A DNA stretch of 64,000 nucleotides. It comes from Natronomonas gomsonensis (GTDB taxonomy: Archaea; Halobacteriota; Halobacteria; Halobacteriales; Haloarculaceae). The notes beneath the pieces are model-generated. The model saw nothing but the letters and a program-made list of their open reading frames with translations, searched no databases and was not told where the DNA came from. Positions 24,987 to 51,242 of this stretch are shown one piece after another (positions within the stretch are counted from its first letter, which is position 1; every line of letters begins with the position of its first letter). Position numbers and translations under genes: made by a program. Where the stretch lies: assembly GCF_024300825.1 (NCBI RefSeq), contig NZ_CP101323.1, forward strand, positions 2,914,001-2,978,000, written 5' to 3'.

Positions 24987-27314
24987 ATGGGTCAGCAAGA
25001 ACCAGTCGAACGACCGGCGGATACCGCCCAGGACGCGCCGGACGGACCCGTCGGTGAACGGGAGGTCCGCGTCGACGCCCTCGGAAAGGTAACCGGGGAC
25101 GCAGAGTACACGGGTGACATTCCATTCGATGACTTGGCACACGGCCATCTCGTGCGGAGCACCGTAGCGCACGGCCGCATCGAGTCGATCGATGCCGACG
25201 ATGCGCTCGCACTCGAAGGCGTAATCGACATCATCTTCGCCGACCAGATTCCCGGCGAGAAAAAAATCGGCTCGATTGTCCCAGATCAGCCCCTTTTCAA
25301 CGACAAAAAGGTCCGCTATCTGGGGGACCCTGTCGCCCTCGTCGTTGCGGAGGACGAGTCGACCGCCCGGGAAGCCGCCGACAAAGTCAATATCGAGTAC
25401 GACCGGCTACCGAAGGCACTCGACGCCGAGGAAGCGTTGGCCGAGGATGCGGAACCGATTCACGAGTCCGGGAACCTGATCGACGAGTACGAGTACACTC
25501 GCGGCGACCCCGAGGCCGCTTTTGAAGAAGCCGACGTAGTCGTCGAGGAGTCGTACCAAAGTTCGATGATTGACCACGTGCCCCTCGAACCGGAGGCCTC
25601 GACAGCCAAGCGGTGTTACGACGACACTGTCGAGGTATGGGCGAGCACGCAGCACCCCCACGGCGACCGTCAGAGTATCGCGCGCGTCCTTGACCTCCCT
25701 GAACGGGACATCGAGGTGCATCGTCCGGCGGTCGGTGGCGGGTTCGGCTCGAAACTCGAGCACAACCAGCCATGCTACGCTGCGGTGGCTGCTTGGGTGA
25801 CCGAGCGCCCAGTCCGAGTCAAATACAAGCGCGACGACGAGTTCCGCGGGACGGTCAAGCGGAACACGCTCACACTCGACTACCGCATCGCTGCTGATGA
25901 GGATGGTTCGTTGCGGGCGATTGAGGCCGACGTTACCGTCGACGGTGGCTCGTACGTCTCATTCTCCAGTGGTGTCGCGGTGCGTTCGTTGGTCCACTGC
26001 ACCGGCCCGTACTATGTCGACGCGGTTGAGGCCAGCGGACGGGCGGTCTACACGAACAAGCCTTGGGGCGGTGCTATGCGATCCTTCGACATGTTCCAGA
26101 CGACCTTTGCTATCGAGTCCACGCTGGACGTGCTAGCCGACGAACTCGATATTAGCCCGGGTGACCTCCGGGAATTGAACGCCTTTGACGGCTCCGAACC
26201 TGCTTCGACGACGGGCCAGGAAATCGAGGCAGCAGGGCTGCCCGAGACCATCGCGGATGTCCGGGCCGCCCTCGACGAACTCGACGTCGAACAGCCCGAC
26301 GACCCAGCCAAGCGCCGCGGCGTCGGTCTGGCGTCGATGTGGTATGGATGCGGCGAGACCGGGCACCATCACCCCTCGAGCGCGTTCTGTGAAGTCCACT
26401 CGGACGGTTCCGTTACCGTGCAGTGTGCCGCCGCGGAGATCGGGCAGGGATCGGACACTGCGCTCACCCAAATCGCGGCGGAGACCTTGGGACTCGACAC
26501 CGAAGATGTGAAACTCGTCACTGACAGCACGGTCGCGCCCAACGCCAACGAGACCTCCGCCAGCAGGCAGACGTTCGTCTCCGGAAACGCGGTCCGCCTG
26601 GCGGCCGAGGACGCCCTTGGGACAATTTTCGAGAAGGCGGCTGAGGTCTTCGAGGAGCAATTCGATGCATCGGTCTCGCCCGCGGACTTGCGCGCGACCG
26701 ACGGTGAAATCGTTGCTCCAGCGGTTGACGAGACCATCTCCTTTGAGAAGGCGGTGCTTGCCTGCAACAATGACGGCCTGCTCCTCACCGGGACGGCCGC
26801 GTATACGCCCCTGTTTGACTTCGACATCGAGACCTTCGAGGGTGCCCCCTACCCGACCTTCTCTTTCGCCACGCACGGTGTGGTCGTCGAGGTGGACGTC
26901 GAGACCGGTGTCGTCGAGGTCGAGCGCATCGTCGCCTCTCACGATGTCGGAACGGCAATCAACCCGGCTATGGTCGAAGGACAAATCGAGGGCGGTGCGG
27001 TGATGGGCATGGGCCACACGCTCATGGAGGAGGTCGAACTCGACAGCCAGGGTCAGATTCTCAATGCCTCGCTCATGGACTATCACATCCCTCAGAGCCG
27101 CCAGACACCCAAAATCGACACCCATCTCGTCGAGTCGGCGGCCGACGACGACGGCCCCTTCGGTGCAAAGGGCGTTGGCGAATCCGCGTTGATTCCCATC
27201 GGGCCGGCTATCGCAAACGCCGTGGCCGACGCCACCGACGCACGCATCACCGAACTGCCCCTAAAACCAGAGCGCGTCGTCCGTTCACTTCCACGGGACC
27301 TAATCTACCAGTAG
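24987..27314 (+). CDS. Molybdenum hydroxylase large subunit 1 (xanthine/CO dehydrogenase family)
   Basis: 775-aa molybdopterin-binding subunit with an aldehyde oxidase/xanthine dehydrogenase a/b hammerhead domain (residues about 25-140) followed by the cofactor domain. Motifs: GGGFGSKLEHN, KPWGGAMRSFDMFQ in place of the usual RGFG loop, AAEIGQGSDTAL with the Gln that contacts the Mo site, and the catalytic Glu in FGAKGVGESAL. Such enzymes hydroxylate N-heterocycles, purines or aldehydes with water as oxygen source, together with 2Fe-2S and FAD subunits. The matching small subunits are probably the pair at 28822/29337 or 35366/35851. Substrate unproven; N-heteroaromatic acid favoured by context. 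Confidence 0.88.
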   Translation: MGQQEPVERPADTAQDAPDGPVGEREVRVDALGKVTGDAEYTGDIPFDDLAHGHLVRSTVAHGRIESIDADDALALEGVIDIIFADQIPGEKKIGSIVPDQPLFNDKKVRYLGDPVALVVAEDESTAREAADKVNIEYDRLPKALDAEEALAEDAEPIHESGNLIDEYEYTRGDPEAAFEEADVVVEESYQSSMIDHVPLEPEASTAKRCYDDTVEVWASTQHPHGDRQSIARVLDLPERDIEVHRPAVGGGFGSKLEHNQPCYAAVAAWVTERPVRVKYKRDDEFRGTVKRNTLTLDYRIAADEDGSLRAIEADVTVDGGSYVSFSSGVAVRSLVHCTGPYYVDAVEASGRAVYTNKPWGGAMRSFDMFQTTFAIESTLDVLADELDISPGDLRELNAFDGSEPASTTGQEIEAAGLPETIADVRAALDELDVEQPDDPAKRRGVGLASMWYGCGETGHHHPSSAFCEVHSDGSVTVQCAAAEIGQGSDTALTQIAAETLGLDTEDVKLVTDSTVAPNANETSASRQTFVSGNAVRLAAEDALGTIFEKAAEVFEEQFDASVSPADLRATDGEIVAPAVDETISFEKAVLACNNDGLLLTGTAAYTPLFDFDIETFEGAPYPTFSFATHGVVVEVDVETGVVEVERIVASHDVGTAINPAMVEGQIEGGAVMGMGHTLMEEVELDSQGQILNASLMDYHIPQSRQTPKIDTHLVESAADDDGPFGAKGVGESALIPIGPAIANAVADATDARITELPLKPERVVRSLPRDLIYQ

Positions 27315-27399
27315 GCCGCCCTTTCGACGACTTTTTTACCGCTTTGAGACGTGACCTCTCTGACTTCGACTGATCTAACGAAATAATTTCGAGCGTCGG

Positions 27400-27813
27400 T
27401 TAGACGTGCTCGACCAGTTCGACCTGGAACCCGGCGGTGTGGCGTTCCTCAAGGAAGATGATACGGGTCCCGCCCGCACCGGGCATCGGATCGTCGCTTT
27501 GGAATGTGAAGCCGTCCTCACGGAGGGCCTCGACGGCCGCGTCGACGTCGGCGACTCGGTACGCCATGTGTTGATAGCCTGGTCCGTGACGTTCAAGAAA
27601 CGTCTTGACGTTCCCGGGACCAGTCGGTTCGAGGAATTCCAGATAGACGCCATCGAAGTCGAGGAAGACAGCGCGGATGTCGTACTCCGGCAGGTGCTCG
27701 TCGATGACTACCTCCTTGCCGAGGCGCTCGTAGAACGCGGTCGCCGCGTCGGCATCCCAGACGGGGGCACCGACGTGGTCGATGCCCTGTAACCTGATCT
27801 CGTCGTCACTCAT
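27400..27813 (-). CDS. VOC (glyoxalase-like) family protein
   Basis: 137-aa vicinal-oxygen-chelate protein resembling methylmalonyl-CoA epimerase. The N-terminal module has GIDHVGAPVWDADAATAFYE and the second half QHMAYRVADVDAAVEALRE, with EFLEP and QVELVEHV supplying the Glu/Gln positions usual for metal ligands (His9, Glu56, His77 and Glu134 by eye). It lies 10 bp downstream of the SDR gene in the same direction. Members are epimerases, dioxygenases or isomerases; the reaction here cannot be fixed. Confidence 0.8.
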   Translation of the reverse strand: MSDDEIRLQGIDHVGAPVWDADAATAFYERLGKEVVIDEHLPEYDIRAVFLDFDGVYLEFLEPTGPGNVKTFLERHGPGYQHMAYRVADVDAAVEALREDGFTFQSDDPMPGAGGTRIIFLEERHTAGFQVELVEHV

Positions 27814-27823
27814 TCGGAGCAGA

Positions 27824-28651
27824 TTAGTCCAGGTTCTCGCTCGCGGCGCGGATCGTATCGAACTCGAGGAGAGCCTTCTCTTGGCCGCCGTCGACGTCGA
27901 TGACGCCGCCGTTTACGAAGCTGGCCTGTTCGGAGGCCAGGAACGTCACGACGTTTGCGACCTCCTGTGGCTCACAGATACGACCGAGCGGGATGGAGTT
28001 TTCAGCGACCTCCATCGCTTGGTCGAAGGTCAGGCCCTGCTCCTCGGCCATAATCTCGACGAGGTAGTCCCAGCGGCCGGTCGCGACTGGACCGGGATTG
28101 ACGGCATTGACGCGGACGCCCTCGCGGCCGTACTGCTTTGCCAGCGCTTCAGTCATGTTGATGTCGCCGGCGTTGGCCGCACCGGGCGCTAGCTCGCCGG
28201 GGCTGGGTTTCGTCCCATCGTTGCCGACTAGGTTAACCAGCACTCCCTCGCTCTCGACGAGGTGGGGCATCGCTTCGGTCGCCCCGCGGACATGCCCCAT
28301 CAGCTTCAGGTCAAGCGCCTTATACCAGTCGTCCTCATCAAGGTTCTCGAGCAGGCCACCGGGCGCGCTGCCGGCGTTATTGACGAAGATGTCGATTCCC
28401 CCGTAGTGGTCCGCAACCGAATCGACGAACGCCGCCACGTCGTCACGCTCGGTGAAGTCGGCTGTCTTCGCGAAACACTCGACGCCGTGTTCGGCCTCGA
28501 TTTCCTCTGCAGCCTCCTCGAGCGGGCCTGCGCTCCGCGCACAGATCGCTAAGTCGGCACCTTCGCTCGCGAGCGTGTTCGCGATTGCGTTGCCGATCCC
28601 TTTACTCCCGCCCGTCACGACTGCAACTTTGCCAGTGATGCCTAGATCCAT
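27824..28651 (-). CDS. SDR-family protein lacking the usual catalytic Tyr/Lys
   Basis: 275-aa short-chain dehydrogenase/reductase fold. The cofactor motif TGGSKGIGNAIA and FVNNAGSAPGG are normal, and VRVNAVNPGPVATGRW is conserved. At the active site the expected Ser and YxxxK are replaced: VNLVGNDG stands where a catalytic Ser is expected, and the helix reads ELAPGAANAGDINMTEAL, with Pro and Asn at the Tyr and Lys positions. A classical dehydrogenase mechanism is therefore doubtful; another reaction or cofactor-binding role may apply. It is first in an operon with the VOC gene. A near-palindrome lies upstream at 28697-28709. Confidence 0.8.
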   Translation of the reverse strand: MDLGITGKVAVVTGGSKGIGNAIANTLASEGADLAICARSAGPLEEAAEEIEAEHGVECFAKTADFTERDDVAAFVDSVADHYGGIDIFVNNAGSAPGGLLENLDEDDWYKALDLKLMGHVRGATEAMPHLVESEGVLVNLVGNDGTKPSPGELAPGAANAGDINMTEALAKQYGREGVRVNAVNPGPVATGRWDYLVEIMAEEQGLTFDQAMEVAENSIPLGRICEPQEVANVVTFLASEQASFVNGGVIDVDGGQEKALLEFDTIRAASENLD

Positions 28652-28696
28652 TGTGTTACCTCGACCGAGGCAACACGCTAGTACTACAAAAATGTA

Positions 28697-28821: not shown

Positions 28822-29340
28822 CTAGTCGTCGCTCGTCGCAGTGTCGGCGTCCGGGTCGAGCGAGGTATCCTCGATTCGGTCGGCAGCGCCCAGCACCGCA
28901 TCGTAAATCTTAGCGTACCCGGTACAGCGACAGAGGTTGCCCTTGATACCGTGCTGGATTTCTTCGCGGGTCGGATCTGGGTTCTCCTCGAGTAAAGCGA
29001 CGGACATCATCGCAATGCCGGGGGTACAGTAGCCACACTGCATTCCGAACTCGTCGACGAACCCCTGTTGGACGGGGTGGAGATCCTCGCCTTCCTCGGC
29101 CCGGTCTGCGAGCCCCTCGATGGTCAGCACGTCCGTACCCTCGGCTTGGCCGGCGAGACGCTGACAGGACTTAGTCGCCTTTCCGTCGACGATTACCGTA
29201 CAAGCGCCGCACTTGCCCGTCTCGCAACCGCGTTTCGTTCCCTTGAGTTCGAGTTCCTCACGCAGGAGCTTCGATAGCGGCACCGTTGGGTCGACCTCGA
29301 CCTCCTTTTCCTCGCCATTGACGGTGAGCGTAACGGTCAT
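28822..29340 (-). CDS. Molybdenum hydroxylase 2Fe-2S subunit 1
   Basis: 172-aa small subunit (CoxS/XdhC-type). The plant-ferredoxin-like cluster is CETGKCGACTVIVDG with a fourth Cys in TKSCQRL. The helical C-terminal domain carries the second cluster, QCGYCTPGIAMM and LCRCTGYAKI. Both clusters look complete. It passes electrons from the Mo site to FAD. The start overlaps the end of the FAD-subunit gene by 4 bp, so the two are translated together. A short acidic tail (DPDADTATSDD) follows the domain. Confidence 0.93.
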   Translation of the reverse strand: MTVTLTVNGEEKEVEVDPTVPLSKLLREELELKGTKRGCETGKCGACTVIVDGKATKSCQRLAGQAEGTDVLTIEGLADRAEEGEDLHPVQQGFVDEFGMQCGYCTPGIAMMSVALLEENPDPTREEIQHGIKGNLCRCTGYAKIYDAVLGAADRIEDTSLDPDADTATSDD

Positions 29341-30218
29341 TCCGCCCCCTCCGTGGCCCGCTCGGCGGCGGTCCGAAGCACCTTCTCGGTCAGGCGCTCA
29401 GCTAGACGGTTCTTGTACTCAACGGAGGCGTGCTCTTCGCCCACCGGTTCGGTGAAATCATCGACGTGTTCTGCGACTGCGCGCTGACGGTCGGCATCGT
29501 GGACTGACGAACCCACGAGGGCTGCTTCCATCTTCTCCATCCGGAGTGGCGTCGGACCCATACAGCCGACGACGATGCGGGCCTCCGTTATTTCGGTTCC
29601 GTCAACGGACAGCCGCGCGGCGACGTTAACGAGCGACATATCACCCTTCCGCCAAGCGAACTTTTCGAAGGCGACGCCGGTCCCCGCAGGCGGGCGGGGA
29701 ATCCGGATGCCGGTGACTAGTTGGTCGGGGTCGAGGACAGTAACATACTCGCCGAGATAGAATTCTTCGAGGGGGACGTACTCGGTGGTCTCACCGTCCG
29801 AGCACTCAACCTCGGCATCCATCGCAATCATCGTGGGCGGATAGTCCAGCGACGGGTCGGCGTGGGCAATCGAGCCGCCTACAGTCCCCCAGTTTCGGAC
29901 TTGGCGGTCGCCGATCTCTTTAGCTGTCTCGATTAATGCGCTCCAAGGCGTCTCCTTGAGATCGCTCTCGATTAGCTCGCGGTGGGTCGCCAGGCCACCG
30001 AGGTAGAGGCTGTCGCCATCGGGGTTAATTTCGTTGTGACCGTCGATTGCCGAGACATCGACGATCATGTCCTTGTCGATTATACCTTGCCGGAGGAGCG
30101 GCATCAAGCTCTGTCCGCCGGCGATGATGGCGGCGTCGTGTTCGCGAAGGAGCGTGGCTGCCTCGGCGAACGAATCCGCCCTGCAAAAGCCGCTGTCGTT
30201 GCGCTGCTCTATCGCCAT
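29337..30218 (-). CDS. Molybdenum hydroxylase FAD subunit 1
   Basis: 293 aa from MAIEQRNDSGF (ATG at 30218), supported by a TATA-like ACATTTATG about 30 bp upstream; an open frame to 30248 is not needed. CoxM-type FAD domain: IIAGGQSLMPLLRQG binds FAD, followed by NWGTVGGSIAHADPSLDYPP, the second FAD motif. The C-terminal CO dehydrogenase flavoprotein domain ends the protein. It transfers electrons to the final acceptor. It is divergent from the large subunit at 30594, with 375 bp between, which suggests joint control and an enzyme made from both operons. Confidence 0.92.
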   Translation of the reverse strand: MAIEQRNDSGFCRADSFAEAATLLREHDAAIIAGGQSLMPLLRQGIIDKDMIVDVSAIDGHNEINPDGDSLYLGGLATHRELIESDLKETPWSALIETAKEIGDRQVRNWGTVGGSIAHADPSLDYPPTMIAMDAEVECSDGETTEYVPLEEFYLGEYVTVLDPDQLVTGIRIPRPPAGTGVAFEKFAWRKGDMSLVNVAARLSVDGTEITEARIVVGCMGPTPLRMEKMEAALVGSSVHDADRQRAVAEHVDDFTEPVGEEHASVEYKNRLAERLTEKVLRTAAERATEGAE

Positions 30219-30593
30219 GATAAGAAAACATTCCCGGCCCCGCATCATAAATGTATGTGCTGTGGTGTACCGTCTCTCACCATCTGCAGTTCACCGCGCG
30301 CAGGGAGACGAACCATGGGGTGACCACGGTGTAGCCGATTATACACCGTGCCAGCGGCGTATGACCACGCTAGGCTGAGATTTCGTCACTGTACCGTCGG
30401 CGCCTTCTGAGGTGGGTGGCGACTCCCGACAGAACATGGTTACAACCAGTACGGCGACGAATACGGCGGTTAGCGACCCATTGATACACCTCGTTTTGTA
30501 TTGAGATACACCTGTGCTGTTGCATCCGATTCCTCTGTGTCTCTAACAGCGAGACGAAAATATATATGCGACACCTCGCAATAGACGCATGGT
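30219..30593. promoter_or_regulatory. Divergent promoter region with perfect inverted repeat
   Basis: 375 bp between the FAD/2Fe-2S operon and the second large subunit. A perfect inverted repeat, CACGGTGTA at 30325-30333 and TACACCGTG at 30342-30350 (8-bp spacer), lies near the middle. TATA-like elements occur on both sides: AAAATATATATG at about 30556-30567 for the plus-strand gene and ACATTTATG at about 30246-30254 for the minus-strand gene. A shared regulator controlling both subunit operons is likely. Confidence 0.55.
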
Positions 30594-32990
30594 ATGAGTA
30601 AGCACGAAACCGTCTCTGAGGAGACGGTCGAGCAGGAACCCGACGAGGAAACCGATGTCGTCGGGTCCTCTGAAGAGCGCCTTGACGCCGTGAGCAAGAT
30701 CATCGGCGAGGCCGAGTACACGTACGACATCGAGAAGCCACGGATGTTGCACGTCGAACTCGTCCACAGTAAGCACGCACACGCGAAAATTCTGGATATA
30801 GACACGAGCAGCGCCGAAGCGATGACTGGCGTCGCGGCTGTCATCACCGGGGAGGACGTTCCGGACAACCGGTTCGGCTCGGGAATCGACGACGAGTACA
30901 TTCTCCCGAAGCAAAAGGTCAGGTTCGTGGGAGAACCGGTGGCGGCCGTCGCCGCTGAAACTGAGGAGATTGCCCGCAAGGCTACGGACGCCGTTGAGGT
31001 CGAGTATGAACCTCTCGATGCAGTCTTCGACACACGCGAGGCGCTCAAAAAGGACCCACCCGCTGTTGTCCACGATGACCTACACGAGTACGATACCAGT
31101 GACGTGCTCGAACCGCGCCTCGACCCCGATCGGCCGAATCTCTACGCCAACCATCGCATTCGGACCGGTGACATCGAAGCCGGCTTCGAGGAGGCCGACC
31201 ACGTGTATGAGGGTTCCTTCGACACGGACATGATGCATCACGTCCAGATGGAGCCCCACGTCAGCGTCGCCGAGTGGACACCCGAGGACGAACTGAAGGT
31301 GTGGACTTCCACCAACACGACCTACCGGGTGAAGAACATGCTCGCGGCAGCCTTCGACGTGCCATCCTCGTCGGTCAATCTCGAGGTTCCCTACGTCGGT
31401 GGGAGCTTTGGCGGCAAGGAGGGTGTCACTGAACCGCTTGCGGCCGCGGTCGCCCAGCACACTGACTACCGGCCCGTCAAGTTGGCCTTCACGCGTCAGG
31501 ACCAGTTCATCGAGGGAACCTACCGGACGCCGTTCGAGACGGACCTGAAGATTGGCGTCACCGACGATCAAAAAATCACTGGGCTCAAGATCGAGACCTA
31601 CCTCGGCGGCGGCGCCTACGCCGGAACCGGCTTCTTGGTTACTCGAAATTGTGGGTTCGCCGCTGTCGGAACCTACGACATCCCGAACCTGAAGTTCGAC
31701 TCCTACGGCGTCTATACGAACCTTCCCATCGCCGGTTCCTTCCGTGGCTTCGGGAACTCACAACTCATCTTCGCTATCGAGTCCCTAATCGAGGACATCG
31801 TCATGGACCAAGGCTGGGACCCGACCGCCTTCCGTGAGCGGAACACGATGGAGGAAGGTGACGAGAACCCGGCCGGTGAGGTGATGAAGAGCATGGGGGC
31901 AAAGGAGTGTCTGGACCGCGCGGCGAAGGCCATCGATATGGACAATCGCGAACGCGAAGCCGAGGACGACGAGTGGCTCCGCGGCGTCGGCCTCGCGCAG
32001 GGAAGCAAGTACAGCATGGCCCCGACCGCCTCCAGCGCGTTCGTGAAGGTCCACGGCGACGGCAAGATCGAGGTGCGAACCACGGCGGAGGAAATCGGCA
32101 CCGGGTCGATGACAGTCCTCGCCCAGATCGCCGCCGAGGAGTTCGGCGTCGACTTGGACGACGTGCGCGTCCTCCGTGGGAACACGGAGGTCACGCCCTA
32201 CGACGACGGATCGATTTCCAGCCGGCTGACGTTCAACACTGGCAATGCCGTCCGGAAGGCCTGCCACGACGCCAAAGAACAGCTGTACCAGCACGCCGCC
32301 GCGAAGTTCGACGTTGAACCGGAGGACCTCGCGACCGACGACGGTGAGGTGTACGTTCAGGGCGAAGGCGATGGCCAGCGGATGCCTTTCGCAGACCTGT
32401 TCGAGCCGACCGTATTCGCCGGCGGTGGGTTCCTGAAGGAAGGCGGTGAGATCTTGGGGAAAGCGACGTGGCACTCACCGGTGAAGAACGTCGACCCCGA
32501 AACGGGACGGGGAGACCGCTTGACGGCGTTCTACACGCACGGGGCGCAGGCTTGTGACCTCGAGATCAACAAGTACACCGGCGAAGTCCGATTCAACAAG
32601 TTCGTCTCAGTGTACGACGTCGGCAACGCGATCAACCCGAAGATGGTCGAGGGCCAACTCGAGGGCGGCATCAGCATGGGCATCGGCTCCACGCTATACG
32701 AGGCGCTTACCCACGACAACGGCCGCATCGACAACGCAAACCTGCTGGACTACAAGGTTCCGTTCTCGACGGAACACCCGCTGAACATCGAGACACAGAT
32801 CGTTGAATCGGCCCACGAGGACGGTCCGTACGGCGCGAAGGGAGTTGGCGAGGCGGTCTTAATCCCCAGTGCCGCTGCAATCGGGAATGCAGTCAAAGAC
32901 GCGACTGGCGGCCGGATGGGGAAGATTCCCTTTACACCGGAAATGCTACTGGATGCGGTCGAAAAAGGTCCCGACTACGGATCCGAGTGA
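30594..32990 (+). CDS. Molybdenum hydroxylase large subunit 2 (xanthine/CO dehydrogenase family)
   Basis: 798-aa molybdopterin-binding subunit. An acidic N-terminal extension of about 25 residues precedes the a/b hammerhead domain. Motifs: VGGSFGGKEGV, SFRGFGNSQLIF (the usual RGFG loop, unlike subunit 1), AEEIGTGSMTVLAQ with Thr in place of the Gln of subunit 1, and catalytic Glu in YGAKGVGEAVL. These differences suggest that the two hydroxylases act on different substrates, perhaps successive ring positions. A TATA-like box about 30 bp upstream supports the start at 30594. Confidence 0.9.
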   Translation: MSKHETVSEETVEQEPDEETDVVGSSEERLDAVSKIIGEAEYTYDIEKPRMLHVELVHSKHAHAKILDIDTSSAEAMTGVAAVITGEDVPDNRFGSGIDDEYILPKQKVRFVGEPVAAVAAETEEIARKATDAVEVEYEPLDAVFDTREALKKDPPAVVHDDLHEYDTSDVLEPRLDPDRPNLYANHRIRTGDIEAGFEEADHVYEGSFDTDMMHHVQMEPHVSVAEWTPEDELKVWTSTNTTYRVKNMLAAAFDVPSSSVNLEVPYVGGSFGGKEGVTEPLAAAVAQHTDYRPVKLAFTRQDQFIEGTYRTPFETDLKIGVTDDQKITGLKIETYLGGGAYAGTGFLVTRNCGFAAVGTYDIPNLKFDSYGVYTNLPIAGSFRGFGNSQLIFAIESLIEDIVMDQGWDPTAFRERNTMEEGDENPAGEVMKSMGAKECLDRAAKAIDMDNREREAEDDEWLRGVGLAQGSKYSMAPTASSAFVKVHGDGKIEVRTTAEEIGTGSMTVLAQIAAEEFGVDLDDVRVLRGNTEVTPYDDGSISSRLTFNTGNAVRKACHDAKEQLYQHAAAKFDVEPEDLATDDGEVYVQGEGDGQRMPFADLFEPTVFAGGGFLKEGGEILGKATWHSPVKNVDPETGRGDRLTAFYTHGAQACDLEINKYTGEVRFNKFVSVYDVGNAINPKMVEGQLEGGISMGIGSTLYEALTHDNGRIDNANLLDYKVPFSTEHPLNIETQIVESAHEDGPYGAKGVGEAVLIPSAAAIGNAVKDATGGRMGKIPFTPEMLLDAVEKGPDYGSE

Positions 32991-33607: not shown

Positions 33608-33762
33608 GCAAGTGTTCACACACGAACAACCGACTTAATTCTTCTCCCGATCGCTACCCGACGAATCGGAATACACCGCCAACACCTATGAGATTTAACA
33701 ATAGCACACGGGCTTAGGGCGTGGGATAGTGTCGAATCCCTTAACAAAACGCCGCCCCCCAA

Positions 33763-35234: not shown

Positions 35235-35365
35235 CTCCGACTCGACGTGGTTGAGCGAGATATAAATAGATTCCCACCAGACGCGATCGATTTCGGATAT
35301 CCGGCACACACGACAAGTACGGCCATCCGGTCGTCGCTTGAGCGACAGGGAGTCTACCGAGCTCG

Positions 35366-36744: not shown

Positions 36745-36961
36745 GCGTTGGAGTCTCAATACTGCAAGGTAAATGTACCGGATACCCCAATCATGCCGGA
36801 TTACAGTCCCATTACCCCACCGTACCCCGCACCCTGTGGCTGGTGGCTCAGGAGCGGCGGCTACACTATGGTTGCCCCTGAATTGACCTCCAGCCAGCCT
36901 TCGAACGACCCAAACCTCCAAAAAGTATAAATAGAAACCCCATATCTCTTAATGCAGACAT

Positions 36962-40659: not shown

Positions 40660-40665
40660 GCCAGC

Positions 40666-45020: not shown

Positions 45021-45759
45021 GACCATACTCAGGACGGACGGATTGACCCGCAGGTTCGGCTCACTGGTCGCTGTCAACGATGTTGACCTCGAGATTTACG
45101 AGGGCGAGATTCGTGGATTGATCGGCCCGAACGGGGCCGGTAAGACCACCGTGTTTAACATGCTCTCAGGGATGCTTGATCCGTCGTCCGGCGAAATCTG
45201 GTTTCACGATGAGGAGATTACGGACATGCCGCCGCACCAGATCACTTCTCGTGGGATGGCTCTCGCCTTTCAGATCACCAGTATCTTCCCCGAACTGACG
45301 GTCACGGAGAACGTCCTCGGGGCTATCAATGGCCAGAAGCGCTTTCTGAACCCGCTTGAACGCTACAGCGACGACGAAGCCGGCCACGAGCGTGTGATGG
45401 AACTCTTGGAGCGCGTCGGTCTCATGGAACATGCAGAAGAGACAGCAGAGAACCTCTCACACGGCGACCAGAAGGTCCTTGAGATGGCGCTCGCGCTCGC
45501 GAGCGATCCGGATATGCTCCTTCTCGACGAGCCCGCGGCAGGGCTCTCAGCCAGTGAGACACGGACCGTGGTCAACCTGCTTGAGGAACTCCACGGAGAG
45601 GTTACGATCATGCTCATCGAACACGACATGGATTTGGTGATGGAACTCGTCGATAGCCTTACCGTGCTTCATCACGGCGAGATCATTTCAGAGGGGAAAC
45701 CCTCGGAGATCAAGACGGACGAACAAGTGCAAGAAGTCTACTTCGGGAGGGAGTACTAA
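45013..45759 (+). CDS. livG: LivG-type ABC ATPase
   Basis: 248-aa ATPase. Walker A is GPNGAGKTT; the signature NLSHGDQKVLEMALALA replaces the common LSYG; Walker B is MLLLDEPAAGLS, and the switch His lies in LIEHDMDLVMEL. The C-terminal helix-loop ending VQEVYFGREY is typical of LivG. It shares one base with the livF start. Confidence 0.93.
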   Translation: MSETILRTDGLTRRFGSLVAVNDVDLEIYEGEIRGLIGPNGAGKTTVFNMLSGMLDPSSGEIWFHDEEITDMPPHQITSRGMALAFQITSIFPELTVTENVLGAINGQKRFLNPLERYSDDEAGHERVMELLERVGLMEHAEETAENLSHGDQKVLEMALALASDPDMLLLDEPAAGLSASETRTVVNLLEELHGEVTIMLIEHDMDLVMELVDSLTVLHHGEIISEGKPSEIKTDEQVQEVYFGREY

Positions 45760-46460
45760 TGCTGGAAGTGGACGCCATCAACACCTACTACGGGAAGAGC
45801 CACATCCTCCACGATGTCAGCTTCGAGGCTGACAACGACGAGGTGGTCGCTCTCCTCGGTCGCAATGGTGTCGGAAAAACCACCACCATGAAATCAATCA
45901 TCGGGTTAACCCCTCCGCGAACTGGAACGGTCCGATTCGAGGATGAGGTAATTTCAGGCAACTCAGCGAGCGAGATTGCCAACCGTGGAATCGGTTATGT
46001 CCCGCAGGACAGGGGAATGTTTCCCGACTTGACTGTCGAGGAGAACCTGACGATGGGGCTCGGGACGGCGACCCGGGATCAGAGTATCCTCGACCAGATT
46101 TACGAGCGATTCCCCCGCGTCGAGGAACGGCTCCAGCAAAAGGCCGGCACCCTCTCGGGCGGTGAACAGCAGATGGTGGCGATGGCCCGCGCACTGATGC
46201 GGGACCCGAAACTCGTGTTGATGGACGAACCCACCGAGGGGCTGATGCCCTCGTTGATTCCCGAAATCGCCGATATCACCGAAGAGATCGCCGATTCGGG
46301 ATACACTATCGTTATCGTCGAACAGAACGTTGACCTGGTAATGGACATCGCCGACCGCGTCTACCTGATGGACAACGGCCGGATCCACGAGCAGGCAACG
46401 CCAGCTGAACTGCGCGAGAATGAAGCGATCCTCGAGAAGTACCTTGGAGTTGGTATCTAA
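45759..46460 (+). CDS. livF: LivF-type ABC ATPase
   Basis: 233-aa ATPase. Walker A is GRNGVGKTT, signature LSGGEQQMVAMARALM, Walker B LVLMDEPTEGLMP, and the switch His position of LivG is replaced by Gln in VEQNVDLV, as in many LivF proteins. It ends ILEKYLGVGI, typical of the family. Stop and the next start overlap as TAATG, so the metalloenzyme gene at 46460 is translationally linked to the transporter. Confidence 0.93.
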   Translation: MLEVDAINTYYGKSHILHDVSFEADNDEVVALLGRNGVGKTTTMKSIIGLTPPRTGTVRFEDEVISGNSASEIANRGIGYVPQDRGMFPDLTVEENLTMGLGTATRDQSILDQIYERFPRVEERLQQKAGTLSGGEQQMVAMARALMRDPKLVLMDEPTEGLMPSLIPEIADITEEIADSGYTIVIVEQNVDLVMDIADRVYLMDNGRIHEQATPAELRENEAILEKYLGVGI

Positions 46461-47458
46461 TGATAGACTTCGAACTCAGTCCGATTTCGCGACGCATCGT
46501 CGAAGAACTGGCAACGGTTACTGCAGAGGAGGAGGTGCTCGTCATCTCCGATCCGGAGAAGGTGAGCGTGGGGCGTGCAATCACCAACGCAGCGCGGTCG
46601 ACGGGTGCGAACGCAACCCTATCGATAATGCCGCGACTGGATGCCCACGGGAACGAACCACCGGAACCGGTTGCCGCCGCGATGAAGGCCGCTGACGTGG
46701 CCTTCACTGCAACGACCCACGCGATCACGCACACGCAGTCCCGACTCGCGGCCTCAGACGCCGGCACGCGTGTCGTTGTCCTTCGGGGCGTCACGGAAGA
46801 CATGCTGATTGAAGGGGGCATGAACACCGACTACGAGCGGCTTCGTGAGGTCACCGCTGCTACGCGTGATGTCCTTGACGCTGCCAGCGAGGCCCACGTT
46901 ACCAGCCCTGCCGGAACGGACATCGACCTGAACTTGGAGGGCAGCTCGGCGTTCTCCCTCGATGGCTACTTCCATGATTACGGCTTCTCCGCGCTTCCAG
47001 GTGGGGAGTCGCCGACCTGTCCGCAAAAGAAACCAGGCACTGACGGGACCGTCGTCATCGACTACTCGATGGACAACATCGGCCATCTCGACGAACCGAT
47101 CGAACTCACGTTCGAGGCGGGAACGCTGACCGATATTTCGGGTGGTAGCGAGGCCGACGAGTTACAGGCTATTGTCGACGATGCTGGCAAGAACGCCGGC
47201 AATCTCGCCGAGTTCGCAATCGGGACCAACCCCGACGCGCGCCTGATCGGCAACCTCGCCGAGGACAAAAAGAAGGCCGGTACCGTCCACTTCGCTATCG
47301 GCGACGACACCAGTCTTGGTGGCACCCTAGAGAGCGAAATCCACTTCGACGGTCTCGTCCTCGACCCGACCGTCGAACTCGACGGCACCGTTGTCCTTGA
47401 CGAGGGGACGCTGGACATTGAAGGCATCCTCGACTTGGCGGACGAACTCCGGGACTAA
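46460..47458 (+). CDS. M29/NicX-family metalloenzyme
   Basis: 332-aa protein of the fold shared by M29 aminopeptidases (AmpS, aminopeptidase T) and 2,5-dihydroxypyridine 5,6-dioxygenase NicX. Metal-ligand candidates are Glu183 (LPGGESPTCPQ), Glu251 (EFAIGTNP), His277 (GTVHFAIGDD), His295 and Asp297 (EIHFDGLVLDP). The motifs favour the peptidase-like side, but the N-terminal half differs from classical M29 enzymes. It is last in the Liv-type transporter operon, so it probably acts on the imported compound or a derivative. Peptidase, amidase and dioxygenase activities remain open. Confidence 0.78.
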   Translation: MIDFELSPISRRIVEELATVTAEEEVLVISDPEKVSVGRAITNAARSTGANATLSIMPRLDAHGNEPPEPVAAAMKAADVAFTATTHAITHTQSRLAASDAGTRVVVLRGVTEDMLIEGGMNTDYERLREVTAATRDVLDAASEAHVTSPAGTDIDLNLEGSSAFSLDGYFHDYGFSALPGGESPTCPQKKPGTDGTVVIDYSMDNIGHLDEPIELTFEAGTLTDISGGSEADELQAIVDDAGKNAGNLAEFAIGTNPDARLIGNLAEDKKKAGTVHFAIGDDTSLGGTLESEIHFDGLVLDPTVELDGTVVLDEGTLDIEGILDLADELRD

Positions 47459-47524: not shown

Positions 47525-48655
47525 TCACCCGTCTTCGCGGTTGTGGATCGCCCCGTCGCGCGCTGAGAGATGCTGTGGATCCCGGTCGTTCGCGACGGCC
47601 AGAAGTTCGGCGACGATGCTGTGGGCGATTCCATAGGGCGTACTCCCACCTAAATCGAGACCGATCGGGGTGTAAACCCGCTCCAGATCGGTCTCGGTTG
47701 GTGTCGTGGCGGTCTCATCGTCGTCCATCGCCGCGAGCAGTTCCTCGAAGCGCTCGCGCGGGCCCATGAGCCCGATGTATGGAACAGGGGTCTCGAGTAG
47801 TTCCTCAAGCGCGAGTCGGTCGTCGACGAAGTTATGCGTCATAATGACGACGTAGGTGTCCTCGTCGAAGGACTCGGTGTCCCGAATCCGTGCCGGTGAG
47901 GTCGAATTAACCTCGGTGGCGGAGGGGAACTGATCCGAGTCCGTGGTTCCCCGGAACCCGACGACGTGGACGCGGAAGTCGGCGTTCGCGGCCAATTCGA
48001 CCACGGGACCGACGTCGTGGCCGGAGCCGACGACGACGAGTTTTGGGGCCGGCGTGAGCGCATCTACGAACACCTCGGCTGCCCCCGCGTCGGTTTCGAC
48101 ACGGACCACGCCACTGCGTTCTTGTTCAAGGTGGTCTTTGACCTCAGATTCGACTGCGTCCCGGACCCACGCAGGTGCGTCCGATCCCTCGACGAATCCC
48201 TTGCCGGGGCGGTAGTTTCCCCGACTCCAGGCTGGGGCGTTCCCGTCGAGAACCGTGACGACGCCGACGGGCTCATTCGCGGCAACACTGTCGAGGGCCG
48301 GCCGGTAGTCTGCAGTCAGCGGCTCAAGGAGGACATCGATGATTCCGTTACAGCCGACGCCGAGCCCCCAGACGTCCTCGTCGTCCTCCATCATGTCGTA
48401 CGTTTCAATTCGTGGACAGCCGCTATCAAGGACATCCGCTGCAATGCGATTGATTTGGTCCTCCAGACACCCAGCTGTGATGCTGCCGAGGCCATCGCCA
48501 TCGGGCGTGACGAGCATCTTCGCACCAGGACGCCGATAGGCGTTCCCTTCGACATCGGTTACGGTCGCGAGGACCGCCGGTTTATCTGCTTCGAGCAATT
48601 CGCGAGCCCGGGCATACACCGTCGACTCGGGAACGCTCCATCTGCTGTCTGTCAT
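47525..48655 (-). CDS. XdhC/CoxI-family molybdenum-enzyme maturation protein
   Basis: 376-aa protein. The N-terminal XdhC/CoxI domain has ADKPAVLATVTDVEGNAYRR and LGSITAGCLEDQI, followed by LGVGCNGIIDVLLEPL. A C-terminal Rossmann domain follows (LVVVGSGHDVGPVVELA), ending with VYTPIGLDLGGSTPYGIAHS. Such proteins bind the molybdenum cofactor and promote its sulfuration and insertion into xanthine-dehydrogenase-type enzymes. It is convergent with the transporter operon. Its presence supports the two large subunits being true sulfurated Mo hydroxylases. Confidence 0.9.
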   Translation of the reverse strand: MTDSRWSVPESTVYARARELLEADKPAVLATVTDVEGNAYRRPGAKMLVTPDGDGLGSITAGCLEDQINRIAADVLDSGCPRIETYDMMEDDEDVWGLGVGCNGIIDVLLEPLTADYRPALDSVAANEPVGVVTVLDGNAPAWSRGNYRPGKGFVEGSDAPAWVRDAVESEVKDHLEQERSGVVRVETDAGAAEVFVDALTPAPKLVVVGSGHDVGPVVELAANADFRVHVVGFRGTTDSDQFPSATEVNSTSPARIRDTESFDEDTYVVIMTHNFVDDRLALEELLETPVPYIGLMGPRERFEELLAAMDDDETATTPTETDLERVYTPIGLDLGGSTPYGIAHSIVAELLAVANDRDPQHLSARDGAIHNREDG

Positions 48656-48849: not shown

Positions 48850-50013
48850 ATGCTCGACTACTTCGATGTAGAATCGGATGTGTCCGCAGAGGAGCGGATG
48901 ATCCGGGACACGGCCCGAGAATTCGTGGAAGAGAAGGTACACCCCAATATCGGCGAGCACTGGATTGAGGGAACCTTTCCCACTCAATTGATCTCTGAAA
49001 TGGGTGAGATGGGGTTCTATGCACCCAACTTGGAGGGATATGGCTCTCCAAACGTCTCTGAGACCGCGTATGGTCTCCTGATGCAGGAACTGGAGGCCTG
49101 TGACTCTGGCCTGCGCTCGATGGCCTCCGTTCAGGGTGCGCTCGTAATGTACCCAATCCACGCCTACGGCTCGGAGGCACAGAAAGACGAGTGGCTGCCC
49201 AAACTCGGCAGGGGAGACGCGGTGGGCTGTTTCGGCCTCACCGAACCCGAACACGGTTCCAATCCGACGGCGATGGAGACCTACGCTGAGGAGGCCGATG
49301 GCGGCTACCGACTGAAGGGTGCGAAGACATGGATTACGAACTCCCCGATTGCGGATGTCGCCATCGTCTGGGCGCGTGACCGGACCGACCCTGACACGCC
49401 CGTCCGGGGATTCCTCGTGGAGACCGATCGCGACGGCGTCTCGACGAACAAGATTACCGAGAAACTCTCGCTTCGGGCCTCTATCACTGGTGAAATCGGT
49501 CTCAACGACGTGTTTGTTCCCGAGGAGAACCTGCTGCCCGGCGCGGAAGGTATGGGTGGACCACTCGGATGTTTAACACAAGCTCGTTACGGCATCGCCT
49601 GGGGCGCTATCGGCGCCGCACGTGATTGCTTCGAAACCGCCAGACAGTACGCAGAAGACCGCGACCAGTTCGGTGGCCCCATCGGTCGGTTCCAGCTACA
49701 GCAGGACAAACTCGCCGAGATGGCCACCCAGATAACGCTCGCCCAACTGCTCGCGCACCGCCTCGCGGACCTCAAAGAACGCGGCGCGATGCGCCCCCAG
49801 CACGTTTCGATGGCCAAGCGCAACAACGTCCGGATGGCCCGCGACCAGTCCCGCATCGCTCGCGAGATGCTCGGCGGTAACGGCATCACCGCCGACTACT
49901 CGCCGATGCGACACATGGCCAACCTCGAGACAGTGTATACCTACGAAGGGACCCACGACATTCATACTCTGATTCTTGGGGAAGACCTGACTGGCATCGC
50001 CGCCTACGAGTGA
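48850..50013 (+). CDS. gcdH: Glutaryl-CoA dehydrogenase (decarboxylating)
   Basis: 387-aa acyl-CoA dehydrogenase. The catalytic Glu366 is in TYEGTHDIHTLILG and the FAD contact region is GCFGLTEPEHGSNP. The residues that bind the distal carboxylate in glutaryl-CoA dehydrogenase, Arg94 and Ser98 in the human enzyme, have counterparts Arg89 and Ser93 (GLRSMASVQGALV). KRNNVRMARDQSR and MLGGNGI are further family matches. It converts glutaryl-CoA to crotonyl-CoA and CO2. Its stop overlaps the CoA-transferase start by 4 bp. A palindrome GGTGG-TAT-CCACC lies at 48804-48816. Confidence 0.87.
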   Translation: MLDYFDVESDVSAEERMIRDTAREFVEEKVHPNIGEHWIEGTFPTQLISEMGEMGFYAPNLEGYGSPNVSETAYGLLMQELEACDSGLRSMASVQGALVMYPIHAYGSEAQKDEWLPKLGRGDAVGCFGLTEPEHGSNPTAMETYAEEADGGYRLKGAKTWITNSPIADVAIVWARDRTDPDTPVRGFLVETDRDGVSTNKITEKLSLRASITGEIGLNDVFVPEENLLPGAEGMGGPLGCLTQARYGIAWGAIGAARDCFETARQYAEDRDQFGGPIGRFQLQQDKLAEMATQITLAQLLAHRLADLKERGAMRPQHVSMAKRNNVRMARDQSRIAREMLGGNGITADYSPMRHMANLETVYTYEGTHDIHTLILGEDLTGIAAYE

Positions 50014-51242
50014 CTATGGTGGGCGAAGCCAAATCCTCCGAGACCGACGTCGGCCCGCTGGATGGGCTGACGGTGCTTGACGCATCGCGGGTGCTGGTCG
50101 GCCCGTTCTGTACGATGCAACTGGGAGACCTCGGCGCGGAAGTCGTCAAGGTCGAACATCCGAAAGGGGGCGACCAGACCCGTGGCTGGCACCCGCCAAC
50201 CTACGGCGACAGCGAGGAGAGCGCCTACTACATGAGCGTCAACCGGAACAAGCGCTCTATCACGCTCAACCTCGCCAGTGAAGATGGACGGGACCTGTTC
50301 CGCGAACTCGCCGCGAAGGCTGACGTAGTCGTCGAGAACTTCCGTGTCGGACAGATGGACGAGTGGGATCTGGGCTATCAGGACCTCCGCGCGGAGAACC
50401 CCGAACTGATCTACTGCTCGCTGTCGGGATACGGCGAGTGGGGCCCGGATCGGGACCGTCCGGCCTACGACATCATCATGCAGGCCGAGGGCGGTATGAT
50501 GTCGATTACCGGCGCGGAAGACGGCCCGCCGGTCAGAATCGGCGTGGCCATCGCGGATATCGGGGCGGGGATGTACGCCGCACAGGCCATCTTGGCTGCG
50601 CTCCTAGAGCGGGAACTCGGCGACGGCACCGGTCAGAAGGTCGACGTCAGCCTGCTTGACGGCCAGGTTGCCTGGATGACCTACATGGCCTCGAACTATT
50701 TCGCGACCGGCGAATCGCCCGGGCGGATGGGGAGCAAACATCCCACCATTGCCCCCTACCAAGCGTTCCCGACCACCGACGGCTACGTCGTGGTGGCTGT
50801 GGCTTCCGAAAACATCTGGCCACGGTTCTGTAAGGCGATGGACCGGCCGGATCTCGTGGCAGACGAACGGTTTGAGACGAACGCCGACCGTGTCGAGAAT
50901 CGAGACGACCTCGACGCGATTATCGAGGCCGAAATCTCGGCGTACACGACCGCAGATATGCTCAAACTGTTGGACGAGCACGGTGTCCCAGCCTCGGATG
51001 TCAAGGAAATGGCGGAAGTCTTCGACAATCCACAGGTGCAGGCCAGAGGGATGTACCGGACTATCTCTCACCCTACGGCTGGCGAGGTGGAGATGCCGGG
51101 AAGTCCCATGCACTTCTCGCGGACGCCGACATCGATCAGACAGTACCCACCCGCACTGGGTGAACAGACAGAGGCCATCCTTCGTGAACTCGGTTACTCG
51201 AGCGAGGAGATTGAACGACTGCGAGAAGAAGACGTGCTGTGA
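50010..51242 (+). CDS. Class III (CaiB/BaiF) CoA-transferase, glutarate-type candidate
   Basis: 410-aa family III CoA-transferase: LDGLTVLDASRVLVGPFCTM at the N-terminus, then VEHPKGGDQTRGWHPP, NRNKRSITLNL, and the catalytic Asp candidate Asp154 in RPAYDIIMQAEGG. Coupling to glutaryl-CoA dehydrogenase (ATGA overlap) is the arrangement seen for glutarate:succinyl-CoA transferases (SUGCT-like). It would activate free glutarate or a derivative for the dehydrogenase. Substrate is inferred from this pairing. Confidence 0.85.
   Translation: MTMVGEAKSSETDVGPLDGLTVLDASRVLVGPFCTMQLGDLGAEVVKVEHPKGGDQTRGWHPPTYGDSEESAYYMSVNRNKRSITLNLASEDGRDLFRELAAKADVVVENFRVGQMDEWDLGYQDLRAENPELIYCSLSGYGEWGPDRDRPAYDIIMQAEGGMMSITGAEDGPPVRIGVAIADIGAGMYAAQAILAALLERELGDGTGQKVDVSLLDGQVAWMTYMASNYFATGESPGRMGSKHPTIAPYQAFPTTDGYVVVAVASENIWPRFCKAMDRPDLVADERFETNADRVENRDDLDAIIEAEISAYTTADMLKLLDEHGVPASDVKEMAEVFDNPQVQARGMYRTISHPTAGEVEMPGSPMHFSRTPTSIRQYPPALGEQTEAILRELGYSSEEIERLREEDVL

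Follow-up and report, generated by a model that had tools for sequence, protein, structure and literature searches.

A conserved haloarchaeal gene island that looks like an aerobic nicotinate-type pathway without the known ring-reducing enzyme

Known routes of nicotinate breakdown

In Eubacterium barkeri, which ferments nicotinate, 6-hydroxynicotinate reductase (Hnr) takes its electrons from ferredoxin, and the reduction of 6-hydroxynicotinate is a low-potential step. Aerobic nicotinate breakdown via THON and glutarate is known from Azorhizobium, as described in the available part of PMC3511419. Since bacteria already possess this aerobic route, the novelty of the locus described here would lie in a haloarchaeal, reductase-free version of it. 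No haloarchaeal nicotinate pathway appears among the literature matches listed, and if the reading set out below is true, nicotinate-type ring catabolism extends to the haloarchaea.

The locus lies in a window (the whole stretch of DNA analysed, 64,000 nucleotides) on the forward strand of Natronomonas gomsonensis GCF_024300825.1, NZ_CP101323.1, positions 2,914,001-2,978,000; the genome is labelled G000 in our set. It looks like an island for aerobic breakdown of a nicotinate-like ring, akin to the known bacterial route without the ring-reducing enzyme. Nicotinate clusters of the Azorhizobium/Bradyrhizobium type, such as those of Sulfitobacter P4 and Rhizobium etli 8C-3, also combine a Mo enzyme resembling the island's MoCo_L1 with an enamidase, a PF06684 protein and a LIV-type ABC transporter. 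Unlike them, N. gomsonensis has no match to Hnr, and none in its genome to UPF0280 (a query that matched R. etli and Sulfitobacter, here run without a genome-level positive control). The island holds one PF06684 copy where that type has two, and carries as extras a second Mo enzyme, a cyclase, a CN-hydrolase, an SDR, a VOC protein, an M29-like protein and the proteins u1 and u2. With E. barkeri it shares the enamidase and a nicotinate-dehydrogenase-like Mo subunit, but this subunit is unsplit, the enamidase has Lys for Glu at beta4, Hnr is undetected, and a Pfam scan of the island ORFs gave no match to the B12-mutase, PrpF or hydroxymethylglutarate-dehydrogenase families of the E. barkeri route. 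The Pseudomonas NicX (2,5-dihydroxypyridine) route has one M29-fold protein in common, at an E value of only 3.4e-6.

The island and its conservation

The original prediction proposed a search for conserved synteny in other haloarchaea, and gene-neighbourhood comparison uncovered it: five haloarchaeal genomes (N. gomsonensis, Salinigranum salinum, G086, G352 and G125) share the same 23-gene set, in two arrangements. The island is a real, conserved unit, beyond what chance would give, and is probably mobile. Four of the 391 Halobacteria genomes searched are carriers, and relatives of its cyclase (E<=1e-30) and of its PF06684 protein (E<=1e-10) each occur in exactly four of the 391, all of them carriers. 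Two further conserved genes (23388-24088 and 24465-24887) lie beyond the predicted span of 24987-51242, and four genes had gone unmentioned, encoding the PF06684 protein (40666-41235), the SDR (27824-28651), the VOC protein (27400-27813) and an EamA transporter (39769-40659). A cupin, also predicted, must be dropped, as none of the 30 ORFs in the Pfam scan hit a cupin family.

A proposed route

Judging from sequence, we give somewhat less than an even chance to an island that imports nicotinate, or a pyridine-carboxylate close to it, and degrades it aerobically, with the SDR in place of Hnr and a glutarate exit. A LIV-type ABC transporter served by two binding proteins would import the substrate, and MoCo_L1, with FAD and FeS partners, would hydroxylate the ring beside the nitrogen, giving 6-hydroxynicotinate if the substrate is nicotinate. 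The atypical SDR may then reduce the conjugated C=C of the pyridone by hydride transfer from NAD(P)H, leaving a tetrahydro-oxo ring whose lactam the Lys-type enamidase would open, with ammonia released together with the overlapping PF06684 protein. The remaining acid would lose CO2 and be oxidized to glutarate, a step for which one candidate is MoCo_L2, a member of the xanthine/aldehyde-oxidase family; the CoA-transferase and then glutaryl-CoA dehydrogenase (GCDH) would lead to crotonyl-CoA. Of the predicted nicotinate-like substrate, enamidase opening and glutarate exit, part stands: the Mo enzyme, the enamidase and the pair of GCDH and CoA-transferase match the bacterial route.

Molybdenum enzymes

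Molybdenum-enzyme genes of the island and its upstream flank are as follows.

21044-22947: MobA- and MoeA-family genes, just upstream of the island (family matches)
24987..27314, + strand: MoCo_L1, Mo-hydroxylase large subunit, nicotinate-dehydrogenase-like (Pfam; solved-structure comparison)
28822..29340, - strand: [2Fe-2S] subunit, MoCo_L2 partner by adjacency (Pfam; pairing from the islands' gene order)
29337..30248, - strand: FAD subunit, MoCo_L2 partner by adjacency (same evidence)
30594..32990, + strand: MoCo_L2, second Mo-enzyme large subunit (Pfam; plasmid-record relatives)
33125..33619, - strand: CoxG-like protein (Pfam)
35366..35854, - strand: [2Fe-2S] subunit, MoCo_L1 partner by adjacency (Pfam; pairing from the islands' gene order)
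35851..36921, - strand: FAD subunit, MoCo_L1 partner by adjacency (same evidence)
47525..48655, - strand: XdhC-family Mo-enzyme maturation factor (family match; 3/5 islands)

As predicted, there are two complete Mo hydroxylases (two large, two FAD and two [2Fe-2S] subunits) and maturation genes, of the CoxG and XdhC types with the MobA/MoeA families just upstream. The N-terminal 461 residues of MoCo_L1 have nicotinate dehydrogenase (NDH; 3hrd_A) as top solved relative, at 278 versus 195 bits. At full length 4-hydroxybenzoyl-CoA reductase (1rm6) ranks first with 350 bits, the NDH chains scoring 277 and 265, because NDH is split over two chains. The Mo-enzyme tree, in which rows from the related loci described below were thinned by removing every second name (30/60), leaves its deep branches unresolved; a joint clade of L1 and NDH is not rejected (p-AU 0.467), but the tree does not resolve L1 as an NDH member. 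The full-length ranking and this tree both count against the proposed route. One row of this tree is a third Mo protein of the N. gomsonensis genome. Among the Mo large-subunit ORFs of one cluster from the related loci, 79 of 80 score higher with MoCo_L1 than with MoCo_L2, whose closest relatives among plasmid records are enzymes of Natrinema gelatinilyticum (48%) and Rhizobium (41-42%).

The two Mo enzymes also fit a different route, which we consider unlikely, in which L1 and L2 hydroxylate both sides of the nitrogen to a 2,6-dihydroxynicotinate-like product without Hnr-type reduction. Ring opening of the resulting imide, reduced or not, would fall to the PF04199 cyclase and deamidation to the CN-hydrolase, and glutarate or glutaconate would pass through CoA transfer and GCDH. 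The two hydrolases concerned are:

33763..34593, - strand: CN_hydrolase, nitrilase-fold amidase (Pfam, motif check)
34590..35309, - strand: PF04199 cyclase/kynurenine-formamidase-like metal hydrolase (Pfam; HxGTHxDxPxH)

Their genes overlap by 4 bp and occur in 5/5 islands, the cyclase is exclusive to island carriers at the threshold given above, and isatin hydrolase is among its weak relatives. Formation of 2,6-dihydroxynicotinate by a further hydroxylation is already known as a pathway branch (available part of PMC3511419), and a PF04199 gene also follows the enamidase homologue of another haloarchaeon, G026. Such a route would nevertheless leave no role for the enamidase and PF06684, the strongest link to nicotinate loci, and the Pfam scan of island ORFs turned up no flavin monooxygenase family. 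Only one of the "two C-N hydrolases" of the original prediction is a nitrilase-fold CN_hydrolase, the second being the cyclase-like protein. Strict patterns recover the Glu motif of the CN_hydrolase in 5/5, the Lys motif in 4/5 and the Cys motif in 3/5 islands.

Enamidase and PF06684

40666..41235, - strand: PF06684 "AA_synth" protein (Pfam; 4-bp overlap with the enamidase gene)
41232..42437, - strand: enamidase homologue, beta4 Lys type (phmmer, alignment)

The predicted enamidase homologue is clearly present, being 44% identical over its full length to the E. barkeri enamidase (2vun; phmmer E 2.8e-99). H82, H84, H206, H233 and D289, which we take to be the HxH, H, H and D metal ligands of the amidohydrolase fold, are invariant in seven aligned sequences, and of the 137 alignment columns conserved to 93% or more among 73 Hnr-linked enamidases, 98 are identical in all five island proteins. 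At beta4 the two groups part: Glu, presumably with a bridging role in E. barkeri-type enamidases, is found in 73/73 Hnr-linked enamidases, while 8/8 haloarchaeal proteins have Lys, one alignment column off. Such a substitution at the metal site may point to another substrate, and we count it against the proposed route. The Glu/Lys split also provides a sequence marker that tracks reductase-linked and most reductase-free loci.

Comparison was made with the best 79 of 255 enamidase loci, bacterial and archaeal and including S. salinum, so the counts describe close relatives only. Mo enzymes of the same type stand beside the enamidase in 63/79, an Hnr homologue (identified via a protein so annotated elsewhere) is found in 70/79, and PF06684 lies near the enamidase in 62/79. 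The Mo and Hnr linkage of the bacterial relatives, with the types of the exit enzymes, upholds the predicted N-heterocycle island with a glutarate or glutaryl-CoA exit. Also counting against the proposed route, the enamidase homologues of G323, G026 and Haloarcula GH36, likewise haloarchaeal, have no PF06684. PrpF- and PEP-mutase-family genes lie close to the G323 homologue. Enamidase homologues also occur in 25 plasmid records, 12 of them Sulfitobacter; neighbourhoods were read for ten, including one from Sulfitobacter.

Lys is the usual beta4 residue of hydantoinase/dihydroorotase-type amidohydrolases, and this speaks for a non-pyridine substrate. The enamidase homologue would then have a different lactam, imide or hydantoin as its substrate, and aldehydes or purines would be oxidized by the Mo enzymes. 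The top models are of glyceraldehyde dehydrogenase for the two FAD subunits and one of the FeS subunits, and of xanthine dehydrogenase for the other FeS subunit, all under cut-off; in the stretches read around the G323, G026 and GH36 homologues no Mo hydroxylase was matched. We nonetheless hold this to be very unlikely, given that phmmer sets the enamidase well apart from dihydroorotases (best E 6e-6) and that the linkage of an NDH-like Mo enzyme, PF06684 and LIV ABC genes mirrors bacterial nicotinate clusters.

PF06684 is a structural-genomics family whose role was guessed from its fold and from branched-chain amino-acid transporter neighbours (available part of PMC2954203). The proposed route, if true, would give it a testable function.

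An oxygen-dependent alternative

23388..24088, - strand: u2, ferritin-like/diiron protein (two ExxH; weak AurF match under cut-off)
24465..24887, - strand: u1, small conserved protein (no family; the longer ORF has no Pfam match)

The haloarchaeal enamidase may instead belong to a reductase-free type that acts after an O2-dependent step, here catalysed by the putative diiron protein u2. In Mariluticola and Agrobacterium vitis an FAD monooxygenase gene accompanies the enamidase and PF06684, in Thermomicrobium a Rieske dioxygenase gene does so, Rieske genes lie close to the enamidase in Rhodococcus USK13, and all four have the beta4 Lys of the haloarchaea. KpiC, a ring-opening dioxygenase, is 28% identical to the E. 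barkeri enamidase (available part of PMC7356986). Moreover, u2 is kept in 5/5 islands, the G352, G125 and S. salinum copies being 82-92% identical to that of G086. It reads FRAMESHIFTED in the N. gomsonensis genome, where it is frameshifted, and is intact in the four other islands. The frameshift tells against this alternative, as it does against the proposed route; the family match of u2 falls under the curated cut-off, and a single-sequence AlphaFold model of the S. salinum copy is unusable (mean pLDDT 42). Overall we regard an oxygenase step as improbable. Relatives of u2 also occur in G384 and G118, with LIV ABC genes near one of them.

The missing reductase

The ring reductase was not visible to the original prediction, and the known Hnr indeed gave 0 matches genome-wide in N. 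gomsonensis. Of three further genomes given the same query, C. magnum and Hydrothermarchaeum had a match and S. salinum had none. In the proposed route the step would fall to the following protein.

27824..28651, - strand: SDR without Tyr-x-x-x-Lys, candidate ring C=C reductase (Pfam, motif check, structure-chain search)

The classical YxxxK motif is missing from the SDR in 5/5 islands. Its top solved relative is 6jh7 (39% identity; E 7.8e-49, runner-up 9.5e-38), which we take to be AerF, a double-bond reductase, and which has likewise lost Tyr and Lys; ywfH (3u49), presumably BacG, is also among its solved relatives. BacG is a reductase whose substrate contains a dihydro ring (available part of PMC9147277). 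AerF and BacG belong to a biosynthetic setting, unlike the catabolic-looking one of the island SDR. Given the ferredoxin use and low potential of 6-hydroxynicotinate reduction, NAD(P)H may not be a strong enough donor unless the enamidase provides a pull, which counts against the proposed route. If that route is true, an NAD(P)H enzyme would be proposed for a pyridine-ring reduction that is, to our knowledge, otherwise ferredoxin-dependent. Rather unlikely, in our judgement, is the fuller picture of an oxygen-compatible archaeal nicotinate pathway with the YxxxK-less NAD(P)H SDR as dearomatiser, a Lys-type enamidase and PF06684 as enamine/imine deaminase, on an island that moves whole between haloarchaeal genera.

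Proposed glutarate exit and transport

36962..38260, + strand: ABC substrate-binding protein 1, Peripla_BP_6 (Pfam)
38454..39704, + strand: ABC substrate-binding protein 2, Peripla_BP_6 (Pfam)
39769..40659, + strand: EamA-family transporter (Pfam; 3/5 islands)
43093..43959, + strand: LIV-type ABC permease (Pfam)
43956..45020, + strand: LIV-type ABC permease (Pfam)
45013..45759, + strand: ABC ATPase (Pfam)
45759..46460, + strand: ABC ATPase (Pfam)
48850..50013, + strand: GCDH, decarboxylating type by nearest solved relatives (family match, solved relatives)
50010..51242, + strand: class-III CoA-transferase, SUGCT-like (family match, solved relatives)

The GCDH and CoA-transferase genes overlap by 4 bp, in keeping with their predicted coupling, and fit the Azorhizobium-type glutarate exit (available part of PMC3511419). 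The best solved relative of GCDH is 1siq, nine of the ten best are named GCDH, and the aligned Arg and Glu are both kept. We number these residues, by assumption, Arg94 and Glu370. The CoA-transferase best matches 9br6, named succinate--hydroxymethylglutarate CoA-transferase, and its best NCBIfam model is succinate--glutarate (387 bits versus 750 needed). Two points count against the proposed route: neither exit enzyme reaches any NCBIfam cut-off, and close CoA-transferase copies (86-89%), found in G086 and G352 only among the five islands compared, are absent from those of S. salinum and G125. In G125 a 45% relative lies about 16 kb away.

The dedicated importer with two receptors is as predicted, a LIV-type system with two permeases, two ATPases and two binding proteins. 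The osmolytes homarine and trigonelline were considered as alternative substrates.

Other conserved proteins

27400..27813, - strand: VOC/glyoxalase-fold protein (Pfam; methylmalonyl-CoA-epimerase-like, under cut-off)
46460..47458, + strand: M29-like protein (Pfam, alignment with NicX)

The cyclase, CN-hydrolase, M29-like protein and u2 are kept in 5/5 islands though the simple scheme assigns them no step, and this too weighs against the proposed route; these proteins and the VOC protein may have parts in it. A single-sequence AlphaFold model of the cyclase was unusable (mean pLDDT 35). Of the predicted "M29/NicX-type enzyme" the M29 fold stands and NicX does not. Taking the Fe ligands of NicX to be His265, His318 and Asp320, the HxD is kept and Glu aligns with His265. 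We reject a NicX role on this metal position and on the gene surroundings of the two plasmid proteins closest to the M29-like protein (57-60%), which have enolase-, PrpF- and TcuA-type genes as neighbours and no pyridine genes that could be recognised.

Content and conservation of the island

The island is a real, conserved catabolic unit, and its most likely substrate is a nicotinate-like ring degraded through glutaryl-CoA. The host genome is haloarchaeal (3.65 Mb, completeness rating 99.99%), the window covering positions 2914001-2978000 of its contig C1, and gene families were called with Pfam and NCBIfam, the Pfam scan covering 30 ORFs.

Gene families of the island (Pfam/NCBIfam)
24987-27314: MoCo_L1, large subunit of one Mo hydroxylase
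30594-32990: MoCo_L2, large subunit of the other Mo hydroxylase
Island: Mo-enzyme small subunits, two FAD and two [2Fe-2S]
Island: Mo-enzyme accessory genes CoxG and XdhC
Island: hydrolase-type genes, comprising CN_hydrolase, PF04199 cyclase, enamidase homologue and M29-like protein
Island: two Peripla_BP_6 receptors with a LIV-type ABC importer; EamA transporter
Island: PF06684 protein, SDR, VOC protein, glutaryl-CoA dehydrogenase (GCDH) and class-III CoA-transferase

Much of the original prediction is recovered in this inventory: two Mo hydroxylases, whose large subunits account for two of the three MoCoBD_1 matches in the genome, Mo-enzyme maturation genes, an ABC importer with two receptors, and an enamidase homologue that is 44% identical to the E. 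barkeri enamidase over its full length. One of the two C-N hydrolases it named is indeed a CN_hydrolase and the other proved to be the PF04199 cyclase; the cupin fell away, no cupin family being matched among the 30 ORFs.

The enamidase was detected in six of 391 Halobacteria genomes, a set that contains the window genome itself. The whole island recurs in the window's gene order in the genomes G086 and G352 (inverted in the latter) and is rearranged in G125, where it is spread over both ends of a 404-kb contig and GCDH spans the join of those ends, as in a circle. A fifth island, found separately in Salinigranum salinum, has the G125 arrangement. The proposed search for synteny in other haloarchaea brings the number of islands to five, in two arrangements. 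In G323 and G026, the remaining two carriers, the enamidase occurs without the island. Twenty-three genes are common to all five islands, while XdhC, EamA and a close CoA-transferase occur in three of the five. The cyclase (at E<=1e-30) and PF06684 (at E<=1e-10) are each found in exactly the four island carriers among the 391 genomes; distant cyclase-family proteins, of about 30% identity, are common. SDR copies of at least 82% identity are confined to the same four carriers, with 38-41% relatives in nine other genomes. Copies of u2, a ferritin-like/diiron protein, reach at least 82% in the other three carriers, and relatives of 25-40% occur in five further genomes. In the window genome u2 (23388-24088) lies in two frameshifted pieces, through either real decay or sequencing error, and it is intact in the four other islands.

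The island is probably mobile. In 19 of 22 core genes the window's copy is nearer to that of G086, a member of another genus, than to that of its congener G352; u1 (a small conserved protein), ATP2 (an ABC ATPase) and CoxG go the opposite way, and u2 was excluded because its query was taken from G086. An RpoB-region frame of 634 residues, partly outside the gene, is 94.6% identical to G352 and 88.6% to G086, and this discordance in sequence similarity suggests horizontal transfer. The enamidase is present in two of 12 sampled same-genus genomes, counting the window's own.

RdfA (rod-determining factor) and a coiled-coil gene (window 51872-54302) flank the island in all five genomes, despite the differing gene order, and in Halorussus RdfA lies about 6 kb from a relative of the M29 protein. 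Both genes may move together with catabolic islands.

Relationship to nicotinate loci

From 255 enamidase relatives found by an alignment-based scan, the 79 best loci were retained; going by title, most are Desulfobacterota and Firmicutes. In the DNA available per locus, these 79 include an L1-type Mo subunit in 63, a PF06684 gene in 62 and an ATP2-type ABC ATPase in 24. Frequent neighbours are a ferredoxin-domain family of 505 residues and an ApbE-like one; Aldedh, TRAP, NAD-binding (Hgd-like), PrpF and B12-binding families are found repeatedly as well. Among plasmid records, 25 contain an enamidase homologue, and the neighbourhoods of 10 of these were examined. One Sulfitobacter plasmid carries a gene annotated as 6-hydroxynicotinate reductase (Hnr), which corresponds to the 505-residue family, and one annotated as UPF0280, which corresponds to the ApbE-like family; beside them lie an enamidase, two PF06684 genes, a LIV ABC importer and a Mo enzyme of the L1 type. 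R. etli 8C-3 has matches to the same gene set. That aerobic variants reach glutarate, taken as known in the original prediction, agrees with PMC3511419, which reports a nicotinate pathway in aerobic bacteria via the intermediate THON and then glutarate; its gene cluster also encodes an ABC transporter and two conserved proteins of unknown function (see also PMC9304392). No haloarchaeal nicotinate pathway is described among the literature matches listed, most subscription papers lying outside the search. We know of no such description.

Among solved structures, nicotinate dehydrogenase (3hrd_A) is the best match to the N-terminal 461 residues of MoCo_L1, at 278 versus 195 bits. At full length 1rm6 (4-hydroxybenzoyl-CoA reductase) is top at 350 bits, the nicotinate dehydrogenase match being split over two chains (277 and 265 bits). 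A tree constrained to group MoCo_L1 with nicotinate dehydrogenase is not rejected (p-AU 0.467); this permits the grouping and does not prove it.

The PF06684 gene start, at 41235, overlaps the stop of the enamidase gene, which ends at 41232. By analogy, the PF06684 protein might hydrolyse the enamine or imine remaining after lactam opening, a proposal made because RidA-type deaminases share its general chorismate-mutase-like fold. Crystal structures of the family show that fold, with function not known and branched-chain amino acid transporter neighbours (PMC2954203). The enamidase homologues of G323, G026 and Haloarcula GH36, three haloarchaeal cases without the island, lack PF06684.

Several other loci deserve mention. 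A 13-kb MAG contig of Hydrothermarchaeum profundi (L046), a second archaeal lineage with a reductase-type set, carries an enamidase, PF06684, a LIV ABC importer and a homologue of Hnr (49% identity to the query). In G323 (L016 8420-18467, L017 913-2181) the enamidase homologue lies near PrpF- and PEP-mutase-family genes and NMT1/phosphonate-type binding proteins; these families resemble the E. barkeri lower pathway, and the stretch examined has no Mo hydroxylase match. In G026 the enamidase homologue is followed directly, on the same strand, by a PF04199 cyclase gene (L019 659-1363), an independent enamidase-cyclase pairing. An unannotated region of a Natrinema gelatinilyticum plasmid (L140, L141) encodes two large subunits of Mo enzymes that share 48% identity with MoCo_L2, with XdhC and EamA relatives (51-54%) nearby.

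The undetected reductase

The bacterial nicotinate route has Hnr, whereas none was detected in the haloarchaeal island, and the pathway is most likely a variant of that route without its reductase. The original prediction had already failed to identify a ring reductase, and an Hnr query indeed matches nothing anywhere in the window genome, nor in S. salinum; the same query matched Clostridium magnum and Hydrothermarchaeum.

Among the best 79 loci, 70 are linked to Hnr, three are without it (L023, L043 and L073, at least 6 kb being available on each side) and six were not judgeable. An enamidase tree of 96 rows was built by a quick method, with weak deep branches and long-branch warnings; its E. 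barkeri row takes the Hnr-linked label from the literature. All eight haloarchaeal rows, with Hnr absent in the stretches examined, fall in one set (support 100). The beta4 residue, which we take to bridge two metals in enamidase, is Glu in 73 of 73 Hnr-linked rows and in all six undecided ones. The 17 rows without Hnr comprise six with Lys (aerobic bacteria), three with Glu, and the eight haloarchaeal rows, where the column holds Phe or Ile and a Lys sits one alignment column off. Two of the Glu-bearing rows, L043 and L073, nest among Hnr-linked rows, and the third (Rhodococcus qingshengii) is a long branch.

A candidate replacement is the SDR, which lacks Tyr-x-x-x-Lys in all five islands. 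Its best solved relative is 6jh7 (E 7.8e-49; next 9.5e-38), presumably AerF, which is 39% identical and likewise without the motif; ywfH (3u49), which we take to be BacG, was also matched. The SDR would carry out conjugate hydride addition to C4=C5 of the pyridone form of 6-hydroxynicotinate, giving the enamidase substrate. An oxygenase route is a possible alternative to SDR reduction, because some reductase-free aerobic enamidase loci have FAD monooxygenases instead of Hnr (L131 and L137; Mariluticola and Agrobacterium vitis) and others have Rieske dioxygenases with ordinary YxxxK SDRs (L136 and L138; Thermomicrobium and Rhodococcus USK13). PF06684 adjoins the enamidase in L131, L137 and L136.

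Probable exit through glutaryl-CoA

The best matches of the island GCDH are 1siq, which we take to be human GCDH, and other solved GCDHs (E 3.4e-123). The window copy keeps the aligned Arg and the catalytic Glu; the Glu motif is present in five of five islands and the Arg motif in four, the G125 match covering part of the gene only. Neither GCDH nor the CoA-transferase reaches the NCBIfam cut-offs. The nearest chain to the latter is named succinate--hydroxymethylglutarate CoA-transferase, presumably SUGCT. In keeping with the predicted coupling of the two enzymes, the CoA-transferase gene overlaps that for GCDH by 4 bp.
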